Assembly: GCF_003399625.1 (NCBI RefSeq)
Contig: NZ_NBXA01000017.1
Coordinates: forward strand, 1 to 44,891
Length of the DNA stretch: 44,891 bases
Direction of reading: 5' to 3'
From: Subtercola boreus
GTDB taxonomy: Bacteria > Actinomycetota > Actinomycetes > Actinomycetales > Microbacteriaceae
Part shown: piece by piece, positions 91-32,247 of the stretch
Layout of the letters: each line of letters starts with the position of its first letter
Position numbering within the stretch: the first letter of the stretch is position 1
The notes under the pieces: generated by a model
Told to the model about the DNA's origin: nothing
Databases searched by the model: none
Seen by the model: the letters and a program-made list of their open reading frames with translations, nothing else
Position numbers and translations under genes: made by a program

Positions 91-3000
91 CCAAAAATGC
101 CGGAAACACCGAAAACGTTACAGACCCATCGTATAGACCCCCAGGCGCCGGTGCCGTAGCCGGGGCGGGAGCTGGCGGGCGGGGCGACGTAGGGGGCGAC
201 CGCAGCGCGAGCGGGGGCGTAGGAGGGGTAACCCGTCGAGGAGTAGTTGCCGCCGCCCATGTTCTGCACACCGATGCCGGTGGGGTTGTAGGGGCGGAAG
301 CCGAGCCGGTCGGCCATCGTGGTGGGGTTGTTGGTGACGAAGGCGTAGCGGTGCAGGGACTGCGGGTCGGTAAGGAGGCCGCGGGCGGCGTCGGGGGAGA
401 GCCAGCTACCGGTTGAGGGGTCGTACTGACGCGAGAAGTACGACGACAGGCCCGAGGTGGGGTCGGCGGGTTGGCCGCCGAAACCTGCGACGGCGTTCCA
501 ACCTGAGGTCTCGAAGGATGCTCCGCCGAAGTCGTCGTAGGCAGCGAGTTGGGTGACGGATCCGCCTACGGCCTGGGCCGCGACTGAGCCGAGGCGGTCG
601 AGGAGGTTCCATCGGGTGCCGGTGTCGGCGGTCTGAAGGGTGGAGGCCTGCAGGGCGACGCTGCCACGGGCATCCAGAACCTGCGAGGTGGTGCCGGAGG
701 CGGGGTTCGTCTGCTGCACGAGGGAGGTGCCCGACCAGACGGAGGTGGTGGTCTGCGATCCGAGGGGGGTGGTGTCGGTGGCGGACTGCTGGCGGCCGAG
801 GCCGTCGTAGGCGTAGGAGGTTTGGCGTCCGTCTCGGGTGGTGCCGGTCATCCTGCCGGCGTCTGACCAGGTGTAGGCGGTGGTGACGCCGGAGGTGGTG
901 GAGGCGGTGCGCTGGCCGTTCGCGTCGTAGGCGTAGGTCGAGGGGGAGGTGCCGGTGGTGGCGGTGAGCTGGTTCAGGGCGTTGAAGGTGGCGGTCTGGG
1001 AGGTGGCGGAGGTGGGCGCGGCGGTGCCGGAACCCGGGCCGGCGGCGGGGAGGGCAGGGGGAGTGGATGCCGCGGAGGTGCGGTTCCCGGCGGGGTCGTA
1101 GCCGTACCGGGCCGAGGCGCCGTCGGTGGAGGTGGAGCCGGTGAGGCGGCCGAGGGGGTCGTAGCTGTACTGCTTCGTTGTGGACTGCTGCTGGGCCGGG
1201 GTGGCTGTGGTCGAGAGTCCGGCGGCGATGGTGCGGGTGGCGGAGGTGACGTCGCTGTTCGCGTCGTAGGCGTAGGCGAACGAGAGGGTGCCGCCGTCGG
1301 CGACCGGGTTCGGGGGTGTGGGGGTGGTGTGGTGGCTGAGGTAGTCCGAGGGGTCGAGGTCGGCGGGACCGCCGCTGCCGGGCGACGCAGGTGCGGGTGC
1401 GGGCGCGGGGCCGGGAGCGGGCGGCGACGGCGGCCCGGGTGCGGGCAGCTGGTTCCGGATGCTCGTCACCCGGTTCGCGGCGTCGTAGGCGTAGGCCGTG
1501 GTGAGGCCGGTGCTGCGGTACTCCGAGGCGAGGTTTCCCGCCGCATCCCAGCCGTACGAGAGCGAACCCCACGGCGAACTCTGCGCGACGGGGCGGCCGG
1601 CCTTGTCGTAGGTGTAGCCGATCCGGTCGCCGGTCGGGAGGGTCAGGTCGGTGAGCCCTCCCGATGCGTCGTAGGTGTACCCGACCCGCGCACCGGACGC
1701 GTCGGTCTGCGACAGCACGCGGCCGGCGGGGTCGTACGTCCAGCCGGTGACGCCGATGGAATCGGTCATCGCGATGGGCTGGCCGGCCTTGTCGTAGGCG
1801 AAGGCGGTGCCCGATCCGTCGGCGTAGGTCGTGTTCTGCAACTCTCCGAGGGAGTCGTAGCTGTTGCGCGTGACGCGGCCGGCAGCATCCGTCGACGACG
1901 TGAGCTCGCCCAGGTTGTCATAGCCGTAGCGCGAGGTGTTGCCGGCAGCATTCGTCTCGGTGAGGGGGCGGCTGTTCGGGTCGTAGGTGAAGGAGGTGGC
2001 GTGGCCATTCGGGTCGGTCGACGAAGCGAGGTTGCCGATGCTGTCGTAGCGGTAGCGGGAGGTCACGTTGGCCGTGGCGGTCGAGGCCGGGTCGGATGTC
2101 GCGTTCTCGACGACGCTCGTCAGCTGGCCCGCGGGGTCGTAGGCGTAGCGGGTGACGGCGCCGAGCGGGTTGGTCAGGGTGGTCTGGCGGCCGGCCGGGT
2201 CGTAGCCGTAGCGGGTGGTGTTGCCGAGGGCGTCCGCGGCGGAAGCGACAGCGCCGGCGGGAGTGTAGGCGCGGGTCTGGGTGTGGCCGTTGGCATCCGT
2301 GACGGCGGTGGGCCGGGCATCCGCGTCGTAACTGTACGAGGTGACGGCGCCGAGGGGGTTCGTGGCGGCGGTGACGAGGCCGCGGGGGTCGTAGCGGGCG
2401 GTCGAGGTGCGCCCGAGGGCGTCGGTCGCCGAGGTGAGGCGGTCGGCGGCGTCGTAGGTGTACGTGACGGTTGCGCCGGTGGGGTCGGTTGCGGTGCGGA
2501 TGTTGCCGGCCGCGTCGTAGCTGAACCTGGTCGTGCACCCGGCGGGGTCGGTAGTGGATGCGACGTTGCCGGCAGCGTCGTAGCGGTAGGTGGTGCGGTC
2601 GCCGGCGGGGTTCGTGATCGCGGTGGTGCGGCCGAGCAGGTCGTAGGCGTAAGAGGTCGTGTTGCCCGCGGGGTCGGTGCGCGCGATGACGCGGCCGAGG
2701 GGGTCGTAAGTGGTGCGGGACGTATTGCCGAGCGGGTCGGTGCTGGCGGTGACGCGGCCCGCCGTGTCGAAGGTCTGCCGGGAGAAGGCGCCGGCTGCGT
2801 CTGTCGCCTGCGTGACCTGGCCGAGCGGGTCGTAGGCGCGCTTCCAGACGCCGCCGTTCGGGTCGGTGACGGAGGTCGCGCGATCCAGGCGGTCGAGGGC
2901 GAAGGCGGTCTTCGCGCCGACGGGGTTCGTGGTGCCGGTCAGGGCGTCTTCGCGGTTGTACGCGTACGTCGTCGTTCCGCCGCCGGGAGCGGTGACGGTC

Positions 3001-5993
3001 GCCAGGCGGAACAGCGCGTCCCAGCTGTATGAGGTGACTCCGCCGGCGGGATCGGTCTCTGTGAGCACGTGGCCGTTGCCGTCGTACGCGTAGGCGGTGA
3101 CGCCGCCGACAGGGTCGGTCACGGCGGCGAGGTTGCCCGCCGCGTCGTACCGGTACGAGCTGGTTGCCCCGACGGGGTCGGTCGAGCTCGTGACCTGGCC
3201 GGCCCCGTTGTAGACGTAGGTGGTCTGGTGGATGTTCGGATCCGTCACCCTCGTCAGGTGACCCTGCCCGTCGTAGGCGTACTGCGTCTTCCGGCCGCCG
3301 GGGGCTGTGGAGGAGAGGAGGTTACCGCCCGCGTCGTAGGTGTTCGAGACGGCGGATCCGTCGGGGAGATGGATGCCCGTGACATCGCCGCGCGCATCGA
3401 CGTCGTAGGTCGTGGTTCGCGCCGATCCGCCCGGGCCGCCCTGGTCGGTGACACTCGCCACGCGACCAGACAGGGTGTACGTGTACTGGGTGGTCGCAGC
3501 ATCCGGCGCCACGATCTTCGTGACGTTGCCGCCCGCGTCGTAGGTGTACGCGCACCGGTTGCCGGCCTCGTCGGTGTAGGCGGTGACGTTGTTTGCGGCG
3601 TCGTAGGCGTACCTTTTCGTGCCGCCCTCGGCGTCGGTGACGGAGGTGACGCGGTGCGCGGCGTCGTAGGCGAAGACGCTCGCGCGGCCCTCGTTGTCGG
3701 TGTAGGTGGTCGTGCCACCACCCGGAGTGACGTTGTAGGCGAAGGTGCGGGTGTTGTTCTGCGCGTCGAGCTGCTTCGTGACGCGGCCCTCGGCGTCGTA
3801 GGTGTTGCGCAGGTAGGTGACGCCGAGCGGGTCGGTCGCGGTGAGGAGGCGGTGGGCGGCGTCGTACGTGAAGGTGCGTGGCGATGTGCCGGGCCCCCCG
3901 CTGCCGGGGTAGGTGATGCCGGTCAGGTTGCCGGCGGCGTCGTAGGCGAACAACCATTGCCGAGCATCCGGAGCGGTGAACGAGGTGATGCGGCCCTCGG
4001 CGTCGCTCGTGGCGCGGATGACCTGCCCACCAGTGTCGGTGATCGCCGAGATGGGCAGGAACTGGGCCGTCGGGCTCGGGGTGCCGTAGGCCACGTCGTA
4101 GCCGTTGCCCGTGAGGTCGCGGTAGGAGGAGAGTTCGCCGATGCCCTCGGGGTCGGTGGCGTCGAAGGTCCAGGTCTGACCGTCGGCGCCGGTGAGCGTG
4201 AGCGTGCCGGCGGCATTCGTGAGGGTCTGGTGCTTGGAGGGGTCGCTGTCGTAGCCGCCGGCCTTGTTCGGAGTGAACGTGTACGAGGCCCCGTCGCCGC
4301 GGACGATCATGACGGAGGCGTCGCTGAAGACCTGCGCGTGGGCGCCGACTCCGAGGGACCAGCCGGCTCCGCTTCGGGTGAGCCGGCCATCCTGAGCGTT
4401 GTAGGTAAGGCCGAGGTCGAGGCTCGAACCGCCGTTGCCGGGGAGGGTGAAGAGCGGTTCTTCTTCGATCAGGTTTCCGGTTGAGAAGGAAACGGGCTCT
4501 GAACCGTACAGCTGGTAGTTCTGCTTGCCGAGATCCGCCCAGGCAGCCTTCTCGGCGGCGGTCGGCGGGCTGGGGAAGCCAGCGGCCGCGGGGGAGAGGC
4601 AGTTGTATCCCTTCGAGACCAGATACTGGCGGAACGCATCGGCGACGCCGGCGGCGATCTCGTCCATGTGCTGGTCGATGATGGGCCAGTCGTAGTTGTT
4701 GTCGAGATTCAGGGCCTCGAGGTGGATGTACGTGCCGGGGTTCGGCTCGAATTCCTTCTGCGGGATGTTCTGCGCGGGGATGGGTGCCCAGCTCGCGGAC
4801 GAGCGGGTCGTGTACGTCGGCAGAGTGTTGTTGAGGTAGTCGCCGACCGTGTCGGAGTCGGCGATGCCGTTCGAGAAGACTTTGGAGCCACCGGACGCAG
4901 GGGTGACACCCCACGCGTGCCCGACGGGCGCGTCGAAGGCGAGGGTCGCGGTGAGGGCGGGGTTCTGGGCGGCGGCGTAGTCTGCGCGCGTCTGGGCGTC
5001 GACGACGGGAGTGCCGGGGTCTTCGCGCGTCAGCTTCACCGTTGCGAGGCAGGCGTTCTGCAGCAGCGTCTTCACACCGTTCGCCAGCGCGATGTTGTAG
5101 GGCAGCTCGGAGTCGACCTTCGCCGGGCTGCTGGTGTGCGCGACTCCGTCGTCGGGGTCGAGCACGATGACCGGGCCGACCGGCGCGACGTACGGCTTGC
5201 CGATGACGACGAACTGGGAGAGGTGGCCGGATTCGCCGATGACGGTCTGGGTGGCGGCGTCGTAGTGCGAGGCGAGCGGGAGCCACGGGTCGCCAGCGTT
5301 CTCTCGGGTGAAGATCTGCAGGGAGGCGGGGTCGAGGGTGAGGAGGACGGCGGAGTCGACGCCCATGGCGATGGTGACGCCGGGGCTCACGCGCGTGACG
5401 CCCTGCGGGCCGGCGGCGTCGGTGTCGGCGGCGTCGGTGCCGGGTTGCTCGTCATGGTGGCCGCGTGATCGCGTCGTCGTGGCCGCCTTCGGCGTCTCGG
5501 AGGTGACCTCCGCCTCGATCGTCGTGACCTCGGTGCCTGCGTCGTCGTGTGCGGTGACGCGCACCGGAGCGGATGCCACCACCCCCGCCGTCTCGGAGGC
5601 GGCGCTCGCGGCCGTGCTGCCGGGCATCCGCGAGACGGTGACCGACAGCTCGGCGTCGGACTTCTTTCCACCGAAGGTGACGGCGGTGTCGACCGCGCCG
5701 GCCGTGACGGTGGTGCCGTCGCCCGCGGAGAGTGTCGCCGATGCGATCTCCTCGTCGGCCGGCGCGGGGTCGGGCTGGCCGGAATCTGTGTTGGTGCCCG
5801 CCGCCGCCGCGAATACCTCCGCGAGTGTCGCCGCGGCGAGAGTCCGGGCGCGTTCGGCAGCGGATGCCTCGGCCGGCGTGAGTGCGCCCGTCAGCACGAG
5901 CGCAAGCACGGTGAGCACGCCGAGGCCTGATGTGCGCCTGCGGCTTCGGATGCTGCGCCGGCGGTTTGCGGAGAGATGTGGTGTCGGTGTCAT
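87..5993 (-). CDS. Exported RHS/YD-repeat protein, 3' end apparently replaced by an IS end
   Basis: A 1968-residue protein. A signal peptide lies in the first 45 residues: an Arg-rich n-region, a hydrophobic stretch and an Ala-rich cleavage region. About 480 residues of non-repeat N-terminal region follow, then many YD repeats of the pattern YDAAGN..T, and an RHS core-like end (YDPSTGSWLSPD, RYAFVTNNP). ATG 5993 is preferred over GTG 6002 because GGGGAG sits eight bases before it; GTG 6002 overlaps that site. It follows the 5999-6790 gene in the same operon, with five bases between them. In RHS proteins the core encapsulates a variable C-terminal toxin. Here only about 80 residues follow the core and no toxin domain is recognisable. 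The last 16 or so codons seem to come from the insertion element next door. Family and export are well supported; activity is unknown. Confidence 0.9.
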   Translation of the reverse strand: MTPTPHLSANRRRSIRSRRRTSGLGVLTVLALVLTGALTPAEASAAERARTLAAATLAEVFAAAAGTNTDSGQPDPAPADEEIASATLSAGDGTTVTAGAVDTAVTFGGKKSDAELSVTVSRMPGSTAASAASETAGVVASAPVRVTAHDDAGTEVTTIEAEVTSETPKAATTTRSRGHHDEQPGTDAADTDAAGPQGVTRVSPGVTIAMGVDSAVLLTLDPASLQIFTRENAGDPWLPLASHYDAATQTVIGESGHLSQFVVIGKPYVAPVGPVIVLDPDDGVAHTSSPAKVDSELPYNIALANGVKTLLQNACLATVKLTREDPGTPVVDAQTRADYAAAQNPALTATLAFDAPVGHAWGVTPASGGSKVFSNGIADSDTVGDYLNNTLPTYTTRSSASWAPIPAQNIPQKEFEPNPGTYIHLEALNLDNNYDWPIIDQHMDEIAAGVADAFRQYLVSKGYNCLSPAAAGFPSPPTAAEKAAWADLGKQNYQLYGSEPVSFSTGNLIEEEPLFTLPGNGGSSLDLGLTYNAQDGRLTRSGAGWSLGVGAHAQVFSDASVMIVRGDGASYTFTPNKAGGYDSDPSKHQTLTNAAGTLTLTGADGQTWTFDATDPEGIGELSSYRDLTGNGYDVAYGTPSPTAQFLPISAITDTGGQVIRATSDAEGRITSFTAPDARQWLFAYDAAGNLTGITYPGSGGPGTSPRTFTYDAAHRLLTATDPLGVTYLRNTYDAEGRVTKQLDAQNNTRTFAYNVTPGGGTTTYTDNEGRASVFAYDAAHRVTSVTDAEGGTKRYAYDAANNVTAYTDEAGNRCAYTYDAGGNVTKIVAPDAATTQYTYTLSGRVASVTDQGGPGGSARTTTYDVDARGDVTGIHLPDGSAVSNTYDAGGNLLSSTAPGGRKTQYAYDGQGHLTRVTDPNIHQTTYVYNGAGQVTSSTDPVGATSSYRYDAAGNLAAVTDPVGGVTAYAYDGNGHVLTETDPAGGVTSYSWDALFRLATVTAPGGGTTTYAYNREDALTGTTNPVGAKTAFALDRLDRATSVTDPNGGVWKRAYDPLGQVTQATDAAGAFSRQTFDTAGRVTASTDPLGNTSRTTYDPLGRVIARTDPAGNTTSYAYDLLGRTTAITNPAGDRTTYRYDAAGNVASTTDPAGCTTRFSYDAAGNIRTATDPTGATVTYTYDAADRLTSATDALGRTSTARYDPRGLVTAATNPLGAVTSYSYDADARPTAVTDANGHTQTRAYTPAGAVASAADALGNTTRYGYDPAGRQTTLTNPLGAVTRYAYDPAGQLTSVVENATSDPASTATANVTSRYRYDSIGNLASSTDPNGHATSFTYDPNSRPLTETNAAGNTSRYGYDNLGELTSSTDAAGRVTRNSYDSLGELQNTTYADGSGTAFAYDKAGQPIAMTDSIGVTGWTYDPAGRVLSQTDASGARVGYTYDASGGLTDLTLPTGDRIGYTYDKAGRPVAQSSPWGSLSYGWDAAGNLASEYRSTGLTTAYAYDAANRVTSIRNQLPAPGPPSPPAPGPAPAPAPASPGSGGPADLDPSDYLSHHTTPTPPNPVADGGTLSFAYAYDANSDVTSATRTIAAGLSTTATPAQQQSTTKQYSYDPLGRLTGSTSTDGASARYGYDPAGNRTSAASTPPALPAAGPGSGTAAPTSATSQTATFNALNQLTATTGTSPSTYAYDANGQRTASTTSGVTTAYTWSDAGRMTGTTRDGRQTSYAYDGLGRQQSATDTTPLGSQTTTSVWSGTSLVQQTNPASGTTSQVLDARGSVALQASTLQTADTGTRWNLLDRLGSVAAQAVGGSVTQLAAYDDFGGASFETSGWNAVAGFGGQPADPTSGLSSYFSRQYDPSTGSWLSPDAARGLLTDPQSLHRYAFVTNNPTTMADRLGFRPYNPTGIGVQNMGGGNYSSTGYPSYAPARAAVAPYVAPPASSRPGYGTGAWGSIRWVCNVFGVSGIFG

Positions 5994-9791: not shown

Positions 9792-10940
9792 ATGCAGTTC
9801 GGAATCTTCAGCGTCAGCGATGTCACGACCGACCCGACGACGAACACGACCCCCAGCGAGCAGACGCGCATCAAGGACATCGTCACCATCGCCCAGAAGG
9901 CCGAAGAGGTGGGCCTCGATGTGTTCGCGATCGGCGAGCACCACAACCCTCCCTTCTTCTCGTCGAGCCCGACGACCACGCTCGCCTACATCGCAGCCAG
10001 GACCGACAAGCTGATCCTGAGCACGAGCACCACCCTCATCACCACGAACGACCCGGTGAAGATCGCCGAAGACTACGCGATGCTCCAGCACCTCGCCGAC
10101 GGCCGCGTCGACCTCATGATGGGCCGCGGCAACACCGGCCCCGTGTATCCGTGGTTCGGCCAGGACATCCGGCAGGGCATCCCGCTCGCCATCGAGAACT
10201 ACGCCCTTCTGCACCGGCTCTGGCGCGAGGACTATGTGAACTGGGAGGGCACGTTCCGCTCTCCCTTGCAGGGTTTCCAGTCGACGCCCCGCCCGCTCGA
10301 CGGGGTGCCGCCGTTCGTGTGGCACGGCAGCATCCGTTCGCCTGAGATCGCCGAACAGGCGGCCTACTACGGCGACGGATTCTTTGCGAACAACATCTTC
10401 TGGCCCAAAGAGCACTACATGAAGCTCATCGGGTACTACCGCTCGCGGTTCGAGCACTACGGCCACGGAACCGCGGAGCAGGCCATCGTCGGCCTCGGCG
10501 GACAGGCGTTCATGGCAAAGAGATCGCAGGACGCCCTCACCCGGTTCCGCCCTTATTTCGACAATGCACCCGTGTACGGCCACGGTGCGTCGCTCGAAGA
10601 GTTCACCGAGCAGACGCCGCTCACCGTCGGCAGCCCGCAGCAGGTCATCGACCGCTACGCCGGTATGCGCGGCCACTTCGGCGATTACCAGCGCCAGCTG
10701 TTCCTGATGGATCACGCGGGCCTGCCGTTGAAGACCGTGCTCGAGCAGCTCGACTTCCTGGGTGGCGAGGTGGTGCCGGTGCTCCGGCGGGAGCTCGAGG
10801 TGAACCGTCCCGCGGGCATCTCCGACGGGCCCACCCACGCCTCGCTGGTCGCCGTGCGCGATGCGGCCGAAGCCGCGGCCGCGGAATCCGTGGTCGCCGG
10901 CGCGGCCGCTGCGGGAGCGTCAACACGGGCAGCGGTCTGA
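9792..10940 (+). CDS. LLM-class flavin-dependent oxidoreductase (luciferase-like monooxygenase)
   Basis: 382 residues with a bacterial-luciferase-like TIM-barrel fold. The N-terminus is MQFGIFSVSDV. The family features FAIGEHHNPPFFSSSP, the flavin-site region LADGRVDLMMGRGN and a C-terminal TVGSPQQVIDR are all visible. Members use reduced FMN and oxygen on mostly uncharacterised substrates and need a separate flavin reductase, none of which is in this window. The last 45 residues are an Ala-rich low-complexity tail after the conserved domain. The start at ATG 9792 has GAGAG upstream. The gene stands alone; the shared upstream palindrome suggests co-regulation with the gene at 28873. Confidence 0.9.
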   Translation: MQFGIFSVSDVTTDPTTNTTPSEQTRIKDIVTIAQKAEEVGLDVFAIGEHHNPPFFSSSPTTTLAYIAARTDKLILSTSTTLITTNDPVKIAEDYAMLQHLADGRVDLMMGRGNTGPVYPWFGQDIRQGIPLAIENYALLHRLWREDYVNWEGTFRSPLQGFQSTPRPLDGVPPFVWHGSIRSPEIAEQAAYYGDGFFANNIFWPKEHYMKLIGYYRSRFEHYGHGTAEQAIVGLGGQAFMAKRSQDALTRFRPYFDNAPVYGHGASLEEFTEQTPLTVGSPQQVIDRYAGMRGHFGDYQRQLFLMDHAGLPLKTVLEQLDFLGGEVVPVLRRELEVNRPAGISDGPTHASLVAVRDAAEAAAAESVVAGAAAAGASTRAAV

Positions 10941-28872: not shown

Positions 28873-29946
28873 ATGACCGAAGCAGTGGGAACAGACCGCA
28901 TCGAGTTCGGACTCGACACCTTCGGGGATGTCACGAACGCCCCGAACGGTGAATCCGTCACGCAGGCGCAGGTGATCCGCAATGTCGTCGACGAGGGCGT
29001 GCTGGCCGACCAGGTGGGCCTCAGCTTCTTCGGCGTGGGCGAACACCACCGCGAGGACTTCGCGGTCTCCGCCCCCGACGTGGTGCTCGCCGCCATCGCG
29101 GGACGCACCACGAACATCCACCTCGGCTCGGCCGTCACCGTGCTGAGCTCCGACGACCCGGTGCGTGTGTTCCAGCGGTTCTCGACGCTCGATGCGGTGT
29201 CGGATGGTCGTGCCGAGGTCATTCTCGGGCGCGGCTCGTTCACCGAATCCTTCCCCCTGTTCGGCTACGACCTCAGCGACTACGAGAAGCTCTTCGAAGA
29301 GAAGCTCGAGCTGTTCACCGAGCTGCTTCAGGAGAAGCCGGTCACCTGGAGCGGCACGACCCGTGCACCGCTCACGAACCAGTCCGTCTACCCGGTCACC
29401 GAGAGCGGCTCGCTGCGTACCTGGGTCGGCGTCGGTGGCAGCCCGGAATCTGTCGTGCGCACCGCTCGCTACGGGCTGCCCATGATGCTGGCGATCATCG
29501 GGGGAGCATCCGCTCGCTTCGCGCCCTACGTCGACTTGTACAAACGCGCCATCACGCAGCTCGAACTGCCGATGCAGGCCATCGGCGTTCATTCGCCCGG
29601 CTACATCGCCGAGACCGACGAGCAGGCCAAGAACGAGTTCTTCCCGCATTACCAGTTGATGCACGCGCGGATCGGCGCGAGCCGGGGCTGGCCGCCCCTC
29701 ACCCGCCAGCAGTTCGAGGGCGAGGCCACCCCGAACGGTGCGATCTATGTGGGGTCGCCTGAGACGGTGGCGAAGAAGATCGCCGCGACGATCGACGTGC
29801 TCGGGGCGAACCGGTTCGACCTGAAGTACAGCGCGGGCACCCTGCCGCACGAGAACATGATGCGGAACATCGAGCTCTACGGCACCCGGGTGGTGCCCCG
29901 GGTCGAGGAGCTGCTCGCCGAGTCCCGCGCGGCGCTCACGCACTAG
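28873..29946 (+). CDS. LLM-class flavin-dependent oxidoreductase (second copy)
   Basis: 357 residues of the luciferase-like family. Visible segments are RIEFGLDTFGD, FGVGEHHREDFAVSAP, VTVLSSDDPVRVFQRFSTLDAVSDGRAEVILGRGS and the C-terminal YVGSPETVAKKIA. It shares the fold and the EHH motif with the protein at 9792 but little more, so it is a different subgroup and not a recent duplicate. It needs reduced flavin from a reductase encoded elsewhere. It is cytoplasmic. It diverges from the LCP gene, with the shared palindrome in its leader. The substrate is unknown. Confidence 0.92.
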   Translation: MTEAVGTDRIEFGLDTFGDVTNAPNGESVTQAQVIRNVVDEGVLADQVGLSFFGVGEHHREDFAVSAPDVVLAAIAGRTTNIHLGSAVTVLSSDDPVRVFQRFSTLDAVSDGRAEVILGRGSFTESFPLFGYDLSDYEKLFEEKLELFTELLQEKPVTWSGTTRAPLTNQSVYPVTESGSLRTWVGVGGSPESVVRTARYGLPMMLAIIGGASARFAPYVDLYKRAITQLELPMQAIGVHSPGYIAETDEQAKNEFFPHYQLMHARIGASRGWPPLTRQQFEGEATPNGAIYVGSPETVAKKIAATIDVLGANRFDLKYSAGTLPHENMMRNIELYGTRVVPRVEELLAESRAALTH

Positions 29947-30415: not shown

Positions 30416-31330
30416 TCAGGCGACGCTCGCCCGGTACCAGGCGAGGAGCTCGCGGAGTGCGGGGAGTGATCCGCCTCCCGGCTCGTCGCGGGCGAGATCC
30501 TCGAAGGTGCGGCGATACCCCGGGATGTCGTCGACGGCCTCGTCGTCGATGGGCCGGAACCCCATCGTCCAGTCCGGGAACTGGCGAACGGAGATGTCCT
30601 CCTCGATCAGAACGGTCAGGCGCGTGTGCCGGGGGTCGGCGCGGATGACCGCCATGCGGTCCTCGATCGTGTCGGAGGGTCCCTCGAGAACCTGCAGGAA
30701 GTGACCCTCCCTGTGCACGAGCATGCCCGTCAGGCCGAGGCGCGCGTTGTTGGCCCGGCTCTTCGTCAACAGCTCGGCGAGGTGGTCGGAATCGAGCGCG
30801 GCGACGGCGACGCTGGAGTACACGATCGACTGCAGCTGGGAGGCATCGACCGATTCCCTGAGCGAGGTGAGGAACGCGACAACTGTCGCGGCGTCGGCCG
30901 GATCGAGATCCCGGGCAACCCGGATCATTCGTTCGTGCGTCTCGTCGAAGCTCCGGGTCATCGCTTTCCCGGAGGCCGCCGTGGGAACGATGATGAGGGC
31001 GCGCCGGTCGAAGGGGTTCGGTTGCCGGACGAGATGACCGCTCCTCTCGAGCCTGTCGAGGAGCACCGTCGTCGATGCGCTCGAGATCCCGAGGTACGCG
31101 GCCAGTTCCTTAGCGCCGACGCTGTGGCCGGCACGGTGCATGCGGAGGAGGTAGCGGAGCGCGAGAAGGTCGGTCTCGCCCATCCCGAGAGCCGCCTGCG
31201 TGCGGCGCTGCAGCGCTGCCTCCGCGGCGCTGTAGGCGCGCACGGCGTCGAGCACCTCGATGCTGCGCTGGCGCTGGGCGTAATCGTCGAACGGGTGATG
31301 CTGTGCGGCCTCCGCCGCTTCACTGGACAT
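30416..31330 (-). CDS. MarR-type DNA-binding domain fused to BLUF blue-light sensor
   Basis: 304 residues from ATG 31330; GTG 31333 is an alternative. The N-terminal half is a MarR winged helix (about 40-160), with recognition helix SSASTTVLLDRLERSGHL (83-100) and wing RQPNPFDRRALIIVPT. The C-terminal part is a BLUF flavin domain (about 166-259). All residues of the photocycle are visible: Tyr171 (IVYSS), Asn195 (NNARLGLTG), Gln213 (FLQVLEG) and Trp254/Met256 (FPDWTMGF). BLUF domains bind FAD and change hydrogen bonding in blue light. A MarR fusion would let light alter DNA binding directly. It diverges from the gene at 31481 across a region with two dyads. The architecture is clear; the target genes and sign of regulation are inference. 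Confidence 0.93.
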   Translation of the reverse strand: MSSEAAEAAQHHPFDDYAQRQRSIEVLDAVRAYSAAEAALQRRTQAALGMGETDLLALRYLLRMHRAGHSVGAKELAAYLGISSASTTVLLDRLERSGHLVRQPNPFDRRALIIVPTAASGKAMTRSFDETHERMIRVARDLDPADAATVVAFLTSLRESVDASQLQSIVYSSVAVAALDSDHLAELLTKSRANNARLGLTGMLVHREGHFLQVLEGPSDTIEDRMAVIRADPRHTRLTVLIEEDISVRQFPDWTMGFRPIDDEAVDDIPGYRRTFEDLARDEPGGGSLPALRELLAWYRASVA

Positions 31331-31354
31331 CACGCCAGCCTAGACGATCAAGAA

Positions 31355-31369
31355 GCTAGACGTACTAGC
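31355..31369. promoter_or_regulatory. Dyad GCTAG-ACGTA-CTAGC, candidate MarR-BLUF operator
   Basis: A perfect 5-bp inverted repeat with a 5-bp palindromic-like centre lies 25 bases before the regulator start. It is followed by AAATTTTG, which mirrors the AAAAGAATT before the second site. Length and symmetry fit a dimeric MarR protein. Confidence 0.6.
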
Positions 31370-31437
31370 AAATTTTGTTCGAACGAATGCCGTCAAAAGC
31401 AAGTCCCCCGGGCCGATTCGTGCGATCAAAAGAATTG

Positions 31438-31466
31438 CTAGAGACTCTAACTAAGAGTTCCTCTAG
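31438..31466. promoter_or_regulatory. Nested dyad beside the divergent gene, candidate MarR-BLUF operator
   Basis: Outer arms CTAGAG (31438-31443) and CTCTAG (31461-31466) enclose inner arms ACTCT (31444-31448) and AGAGT (31454-31458) around AACTA. The site ends 14 bases before ATG 31481, where a bound repressor would block transcription. It shares the CTAG core with the site at 31355. Confidence 0.6.
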
Positions 31467-31480
31467 TGAATGAGACAGAC

Positions 31481-31792
31481 ATGACCATCGACATCCTTCC
31501 TGCTGCCCGTTCCCTCGATCTCCACGTTCTCTGGATCCGTCCCGACACCGATCTGTGGGTGGCGCAGGGCTCGGGCGAGTTCATCGGCATGGTCGAATTC
31601 GTCGACGGTCACTTCGTCAGCACGGATCGTGGCAGCCGAGTCATCGACTCTTTCAGCGACCTCCCCGCCGCCCGCCAGGCTGTCGTCAACCACGCCACGA
31701 TGCTGGACTCCTTCGCCAACCCGGGTTCGAGGCGGGCGTCGGCGCGGCGCGGCGCGTCGGTCTCGGCGCGCTTCCTCCGCCGCACGTCTTAG
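31481..31792 (+). CDS. Small hypothetical protein divergent from the MarR-BLUF regulator
   Basis: 103 residues from ATG 31481; GTG 31466 is in frame but lies inside the dyad. The N-terminal two thirds look like a compact domain (LHVLWIRPDTDLWVAQGSGEFIGMVEFVDGHFVSTDRGSRVI), followed by a helical segment and an Arg-rich tail (SRRASARRGASVSARFLRR). No signal, membrane segment or known family is seen; the basic tail might bind nucleic acid. The dyad next to its start makes it the best candidate target of the light-sensing regulator. Confidence 0.68.
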   Translation: MTIDILPAARSLDLHVLWIRPDTDLWVAQGSGEFIGMVEFVDGHFVSTDRGSRVIDSFSDLPAARQAVVNHATMLDSFANPGSRRASARRGASVSARFLRRTS

Positions 31793-31836: not shown

Positions 31837-32247
31837 GTGGCGACGGCAGAGGCAGGCCAGGAGCAGTTCGACCAGCAGCGTGCTCGCCTGGCCGCTGTGG
31901 TGGTGGACCGTCTGAGTCCCAACGAACGGGTGGCCCTCGTGCTCCACGAGTCGTTCGGGTTCGACTTCGACACCATCGGTGACATCCTCGAACGCGGACC
32001 GGCCGCCGCACGGAAGCTCGCATCCCGGGCGCGAGCCAAGACCGCCGGAGCGGAGCCCGGCGGGCGCATCACCGACCAGCGGATCGAGGGGCGAGAGGCC
32101 ATCGCGGCATTCTTCAACGGCAGTGCTCACGCGGCCCTGCCCGTCTTCATCGGGGGCCGACCCGGGTTCGCCTGGTTCCAGCGGGGTACGCCCGCCGTGG
32201 TCTTCGACTTCAACGTCGAGAGCGACGGCAGGAGAAGAAGAACATGA
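31837..32247 (+). pseudogene. Eroded ECF41/SigJ-like sigma factor (region 4 plus SnoaL-like tail)
   Basis: About 136 residues. The segment LSPNERVALVLHESFGFDFDTIGDILERGPAAARKLASRARAK is sigma region 4 of the ECF41/SigJ type, where VLH is typical. The following GREAIAAFFNG and GGRPGFAWFQRGTPAVVFDFNV match pieces of the SnoaL-like C-terminal domain of that group, with most of the domain missing. Region 2, which binds the -10 element, is absent upstream; only fragments are readable back to about 31793. It therefore looks like a deleted gene. Its stop overlaps the next start (ATGA at 32244-32247). Confidence 0.65.

Follow-up and report, generated by a model that had tools for sequence, protein, structure and literature searches.

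The locus raises the question of whether a MarR-type repressor and a BLUF photoreceptor domain, found here in one polypeptide, form a light-controlled switch that acts directly on DNA. The window analysed, a stretch of 44.9 kb, is the entire contig C17 of a 4.12-Mb genome assembled in 95 contigs. On its minus strand, the open frame at 30416–31333 encodes a single protein of 304 residues when the ATG at 31330 is taken as the start (Table 1). An earlier note on this DNA had described this protein as a MarR winged helix linked to a BLUF domain and had proposed a domain search of the translation. That search places both families above their curated Pfam cut-offs, with BLUF at residues 167–257 (E = 1e-28, 99.7 bits against a cut-off of 25), MarR_2 at 57–111 (E = 4.1e-10, 40.1 bits against 27) and MarR at 68–111 (E = 2.7e-8, 34 bits against 24.6). 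Sequence matches in the PDB bear out the same division: the BLUF half matches BlrB, Tll0078 and AppA (best E = 1.6e-15), and the MarR half matches MarR-type proteins, the best being Tm0710 (E = 1e-7). By Pfam and translation, a sensor and a DNA-binding domain lie in one chain, the arrangement that defines a one-component factor.

Table 1 Features of the marR-bluf locus (positions in the window)
Feature	Position	Strand	Details
marR-bluf gene	30416..31330	-	304 aa, ATG 31330, stop 30416-30418; both halves above Pfam cut-offs
MarR part	30842..31330	-	residues 1-163; winged helix by Pfam at 57-111
BLUF part	30419..30841	-	residues 164-304; C-terminal helix 288-303
Operator-like palindrome A	31355..31369	.	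GCTAG-N5-CTAGC, GCTAGACGTACTAGC; on the marR-bluf side
Operator-like palindrome B	31437..31451	.	GCTAG-N5-CTAAC, GCTAGAGACTCTAAC; begins 44 nt before the X ATG
Gene X	31481..31789	+	about 103 aa, divergent from marR-bluf; ORF from GTG 31466 is 108 aa

The flavin pocket of BLUF domains contains a Tyr, an Asn and a Gln, together with a Trp and a Met of strand 5. Tyr171, Asn195, Gln213, Trp254 and Met256 stand in the BLUF half at exactly the numbers given in the earlier note, each in an alignment column where 90% or more of 31 rows agree (the fusion protein, 29 BLUF domains and one MarR). Because the peptide FPDWTMGF served in part to gather these rows, selection accounts for some of the conservation that W254 and M256 show in this alignment. 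The available text of PMC4844311 describes the Tyr–Gln pair of the pocket.

An assembly or sequencing artefact would be the simplest way to dismiss the fusion, and the occurrence of the architecture in a single genome of 95 contigs, not found a second time, is what lends this explanation its weight. We nevertheless consider it highly improbable, as the joint lies about 30.8 kb into the contig and 14 kb from its end, near the position where the MarR part ends in relatives. The junction codons read in one stop-free frame, and coding bias persists in both halves of the open frame (GC3 of 0.84 for MarR and 0.915 for BLUF), as do the conserved residues. In a structure model (pTM 0.55), the last MarR helix, residues 144–164, ends one residue ahead of BLUF strand 1 (166–175). 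A scan of viral contigs returned no MarR rows for this model, and the MarR half was therefore built on almost no alignment. It is modelled as helices 13–48, 52–66, 73–80 and 84–96, wing strands 101–103 and 112–114, and helices 121–140 and 144–164. This is the winged-helix order with N- and C-terminal helices that is characteristic of the MarR family, with a confidence below 50 at residues 103–124.

The MarR–BLUF architecture is known from one genome only. In a protein search of 12 genomes of the genus, the source genome alone gave a full match to the BLUF half; G006, of the same genus, gave one row matching residues 61–230, with an internal stop. BLUF is present in 97 of the 398 genomes drawn from the family (source genome counted), and none of the other BLUF frames fetched from this draw holds a MarR domain. 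Hidden fusions were sought at 33 further listed BLUF rows with an open frame of at least 245 aa: among these listed matches, none has MarR in the BLUF frame (0/33), and the long frames at L023, L027 and L032 gave no MarR match. No other row spans both halves among the matches listed for 396 genomes of the phylum, with up to five candidates scored per genome; none of 117 matching plasmid records, from 72,556 searched, covers 80% of the fusion protein; and no second fusion appeared at 43 loci in a scan of genome contigs confined to exact peptide patterns.

A description of a MarR–BLUF protein was likewise not found in the open-access (PMC) literature. No such fusion appears in the available text of PMC6739363 or PMC2654016, and the accessible part of a 2022 review of light-regulated expression (PMC9614035) contains no word starting with MarR. 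According to the available text of a 2014 survey, 64% of 1,705 bacterial BLUF proteins are short and 34% have EAL (PMC4844311), in agreement with the earlier note, which had held that BLUF domains are usually stand-alone or linked to enzymes. The same text reports that HTH proteins are frequent among blue-light flavoproteins, and a BLUF–HTH entry in its supplements is possible. One-component flavin regulators with LOV domains, such as EL222, are already known; the combination of BLUF with MarR appears to be new.

The closest relative of the MarR part is 72% identical and occurs in another genome of the genus, G011, without BLUF. It lies in an ORF of 200 aa whose tail is rich in His and Asp, and a second MarR follows. 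The same divergent MarR/X pair is found there, with an X that is 67% identical to that of the window. The MarR part of the fusion is a member of a clade that often adjoins gene X. Tandem MarR pairs stand beside X at L002, L102 and L104, and the window has in that place a single MarR, which bears the BLUF domain. At L017 (4511–5411, Herbiconiux oxytropis), a different type of MarR gene lies on the same strand as a BLUF gene and stops about 35 bp short of it.

Gene X itself has no family in NCBIfam or PADLOC and no PDB match by profile, and its only Pfam match, INTS5_N (E = 0.13), falls below the cut-off. It is the sole copy found in the source genome at E = 0.001, and ten other aligned X rows, MarR-linked and BLUF-linked alike, are 18–28% identical to it. 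Within the DNA fetched around 30 X loci, a MarR of this kind is present at 10 and BLUF at 7, the window being counted in both. Among the 30 best-scoring BLUF loci, 8 have X directly upstream of BLUF on the same strand; of 33 further ones, L130 alone does, with two pairs. The 43 loci from genome contigs gave no X match. MarR–X and BLUF–X modules occur separately; in the window the two domains adjoin X as a single protein. After X, the frame at 31903–32040 matches sigma-70 region 4 (1.7e-5, 24.8 bits against a cut-off of 25.7), with no other sigma match, and is perhaps the remnant of a sigma factor. The contig also carries two luciferase-like monooxygenase genes (window 9792–10937 and 28873–29943).

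The stretch 31331–31480, proposed in the earlier note for binding tests, does hold candidate operators, and the protein's likely target gene is X. Conserved palindromes present at the gene's own and the neighbouring promoter are candidate binding sites for MarR (A and B, Table 1). Palindrome B has outer arms CTAGAG/CTCTAG at 31438–31466. A and B are 82 bp apart, and the G011 counterpart of A lies 80 bp from its site B. The pattern RCTAG-N5-CTARY, which was derived from the window locus and G011, so that these two are no independent support for it, occurs at five places in the 4.12-Mb genome, two of them inside the 135-bp gap. Two sites in 31331–31480 were obtained in none of 20,000 dinucleotide shuffles. 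Read backwards, the pattern has about 250 occurrences per strand, and its rarity is therefore largely the rarity of CTAG. As for a wider regulon, the three other exact genomic sites look unrelated to marR-bluf: one is beside a TetR-like gene, one at a gene end after a ParA-like gene and one between PIN-like and ketopantoate-reductase-like genes, all named from their translations. Between the two palindromes, a 16-nt imperfect inverted repeat (88%) spans 31373–31431; inspection by eye did not show it in the corresponding gap of G011, and it is possibly another binding site.

Comparison across loci shows which domain these sites accompany. Of 17 distinct MarR or MarR–X loci, window and G011 included, 12 have the pattern; L003, L004, L008, L010 and L107 do not, and the L009 site stands on the far side of the MarR gene. 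None of 11 X–BLUF loci (37,111 bases) and none of 54 other BLUF loci (180,899 bases) has the pattern, so the sites are linked to MarR, not to BLUF. X loci without MarR in the fetched DNA have it in 3 of 14 cases. Nine genomes chosen for having such a locus contain 32 exact places, 13 of them, counted by hand, in the MarR–X interval or immediately ahead of X. At the nine loci, the window and eight related ones, the distance from the start of the last site to the start of X is 42–46 nt in eight cases and 54 nt in G031, with X start codons chosen by us.

The recurrent pairing of X with BLUF suggests a different arrangement, in which light would act mainly on the X protein: BLUF would bind X, the MarR part would only set X expression, and the fusion would place a BLUF–X partner pair under one control. 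In the BLUF tree, 12 X–BLUF rows make up one side of a supported branch (100/98), and at L130 (G344, 2475–3131, minus strand) an X-like stretch and BLUF even share an open frame, with a second X–BLUF pair adjoining. The absence of the operator pattern from X–BLUF loci also favours such a partnership, as do the identities of X, since, with G011 set aside, the X rows linked to MarR (24 and 18% identical) are no closer to that of the window than those linked to BLUF (20–28%). Its closest counterpart, however, is the G011 X beside a MarR in a genome without BLUF, and the window BLUF takes no settled position among the BLUFs of the family and is not placed in the X–BLUF clade. We regard light acting mainly on X as distinctly unlikely. 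The same placement also weighs against the light-switch reading set out below: most BLUF loci are without X–BLUF pairs as well, so what ties BLUF to X in other genera may not apply to the window. In the same tree, named Clavibacter BLUF rows are very close to same-family BLUF rows, from which the family is taken to be Microbacteriaceae.

Another genus of the family has a BLUF–TetR protein (L150 in G286, 727–1770, minus strand). Its TetR_C_6 match (1.4e-6) is above the cut-off and its TetR_N match (0.0012) below it. Like the fusion, it is a single chain with BLUF plus a transcription-factor domain, from the same bacterial family; it differs in having BLUF at the N terminus, a TetR output and Gly at the key Gln position, with the other four residues kept. 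Its BLUF domain sits on a long tree branch, separate from the window BLUF. At L153 (G354, 1598–2530, plus strand), the BLUF half of the protein matches, but Pfam finds no TetR domain in it. On the Frigoribacterium plasmid NZ_CP043651.1 (L180), a BLUF match overlaps a gene annotated as TetR C-terminal.

BLUF parts are usually N-terminal in multi-domain BLUF proteins, and the signal path in a C-terminal fusion would therefore differ. This unusual place of BLUF is one reason to ask whether the MarR part keeps an old, chemical signal, with BLUF as an accessory part that depends on flavin or redox state, or that forms oligomers, and DNA binding hardly affected by light. Stand-alone MarR relatives beside X with the same sites elsewhere point the same way, as the circuit there seems to work without a fused BLUF. 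Yet the fusion has kept its photocycle residues, the Tyr–Gln pair included, whereas the Gly of the L150 protein indicates that the Gln can be lost when BLUF joins a regulator. On this evidence, a MarR part still governed by its old signal is unlikely.

Since both domains have their key residues, the joint is nearly free of a linker and conserved operator-like palindromes are close by, the protein is most simply read as a one-component light sensor that binds DNA. We infer DNA binding, flavin binding and light control, and put at roughly 0.6 the probability that the fusion is a natural one-component blue-light-responsive repressor of X and of its own gene. In such a mechanism, a MarR dimer would bind at RCTAG-N5-CTARY, cover the control region between the divergent genes and repress both of them. 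FAD in the BLUF part would take up blue light through the usual Tyr–Gln switch, and the signal would reach the MarR dimer through the near linker-free joint of last MarR helix and BLUF strand 1, with the BLUF C-terminal helices perhaps serving as a second path. Light would thereby alter operator affinity. Our guess for the direction, DNA-bound in the dark and released in blue light, takes as its models the ligand-induced release of MarR proteins and the E. coli BluF/BluR pair.

More tentatively, and with odds that we would place below even, the locus may be a complete minimal blue-light circuit that arose by joining MarR–X and BLUF–X modules, with X as a dedicated BLUF output or partner. The family would then repeatedly build BLUF transcription factors (MarR–BLUF and BLUF–TetR), a natural class of which no description was found. 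The BLUF systems in the available text of PMC4844311, PMC8892541, PMC3509220 and PMC9614035 work via enzymes or partner proteins; if light gates DNA binding here, sensing and direct action on DNA would be combined in a single BLUF polypeptide. Because the control region is 150 bp long and there is one clear candidate target, operator binding could serve as a simple readout of BLUF activity. If this reading is true, the protein could also be used as a compact optogenetic repressor whose flavin cofactor is generally present in bacteria. The locus further brings to light an uncharacterised small protein, X, tied to BLUF genes.

Known systems share individual elements of this design. The short BLUF proteins PixD, BlrB and BlsA (132–151 residues in the chains compared) have the BLUF fold and a C-terminal helix in common with the fusion, and to our knowledge are without a DNA-binding domain. 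CrtR of Corynebacterium glutamicum is, like the MarR part, an actinobacterial MarR repressor of a divergent gene, and its output is light-dependent; in the available text, however, no photosensor domain is reported, an unidentified compound is proposed as the signal and the targets are carotenoid genes, whereas the divergent gene in the window is X (PMC6739363). Carotenoid control of the CrtR type was considered for the window and set aside, as no crt gene is beside marR-bluf and X has no Pfam or NCBIfam match. EL222 and other LOV–HTH regulators, as covered in the available part of PMC4844311, also join a flavin blue-light sensor to a DNA-binding domain in one protein, but they use LOV photochemistry and an HTH output, in place of BLUF and MarR with the sensor C-terminal.

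A close parallel in layout comes from E. coli, where, by the available text of PMC3509220, BluF interferes in blue light with the repressor BluR at the divergent small-protein operon ycgZ-ymgABC. A BLUF sensor, a DNA-binding repressor and a divergent small-protein gene form a unit in both cases; X is without an annotated family, and the parallel drawn here concerns layout. E. coli divides the task between two proteins, a BLUF–EAL protein and a MerR-like repressor, whereas the window has one chain with a MarR domain.
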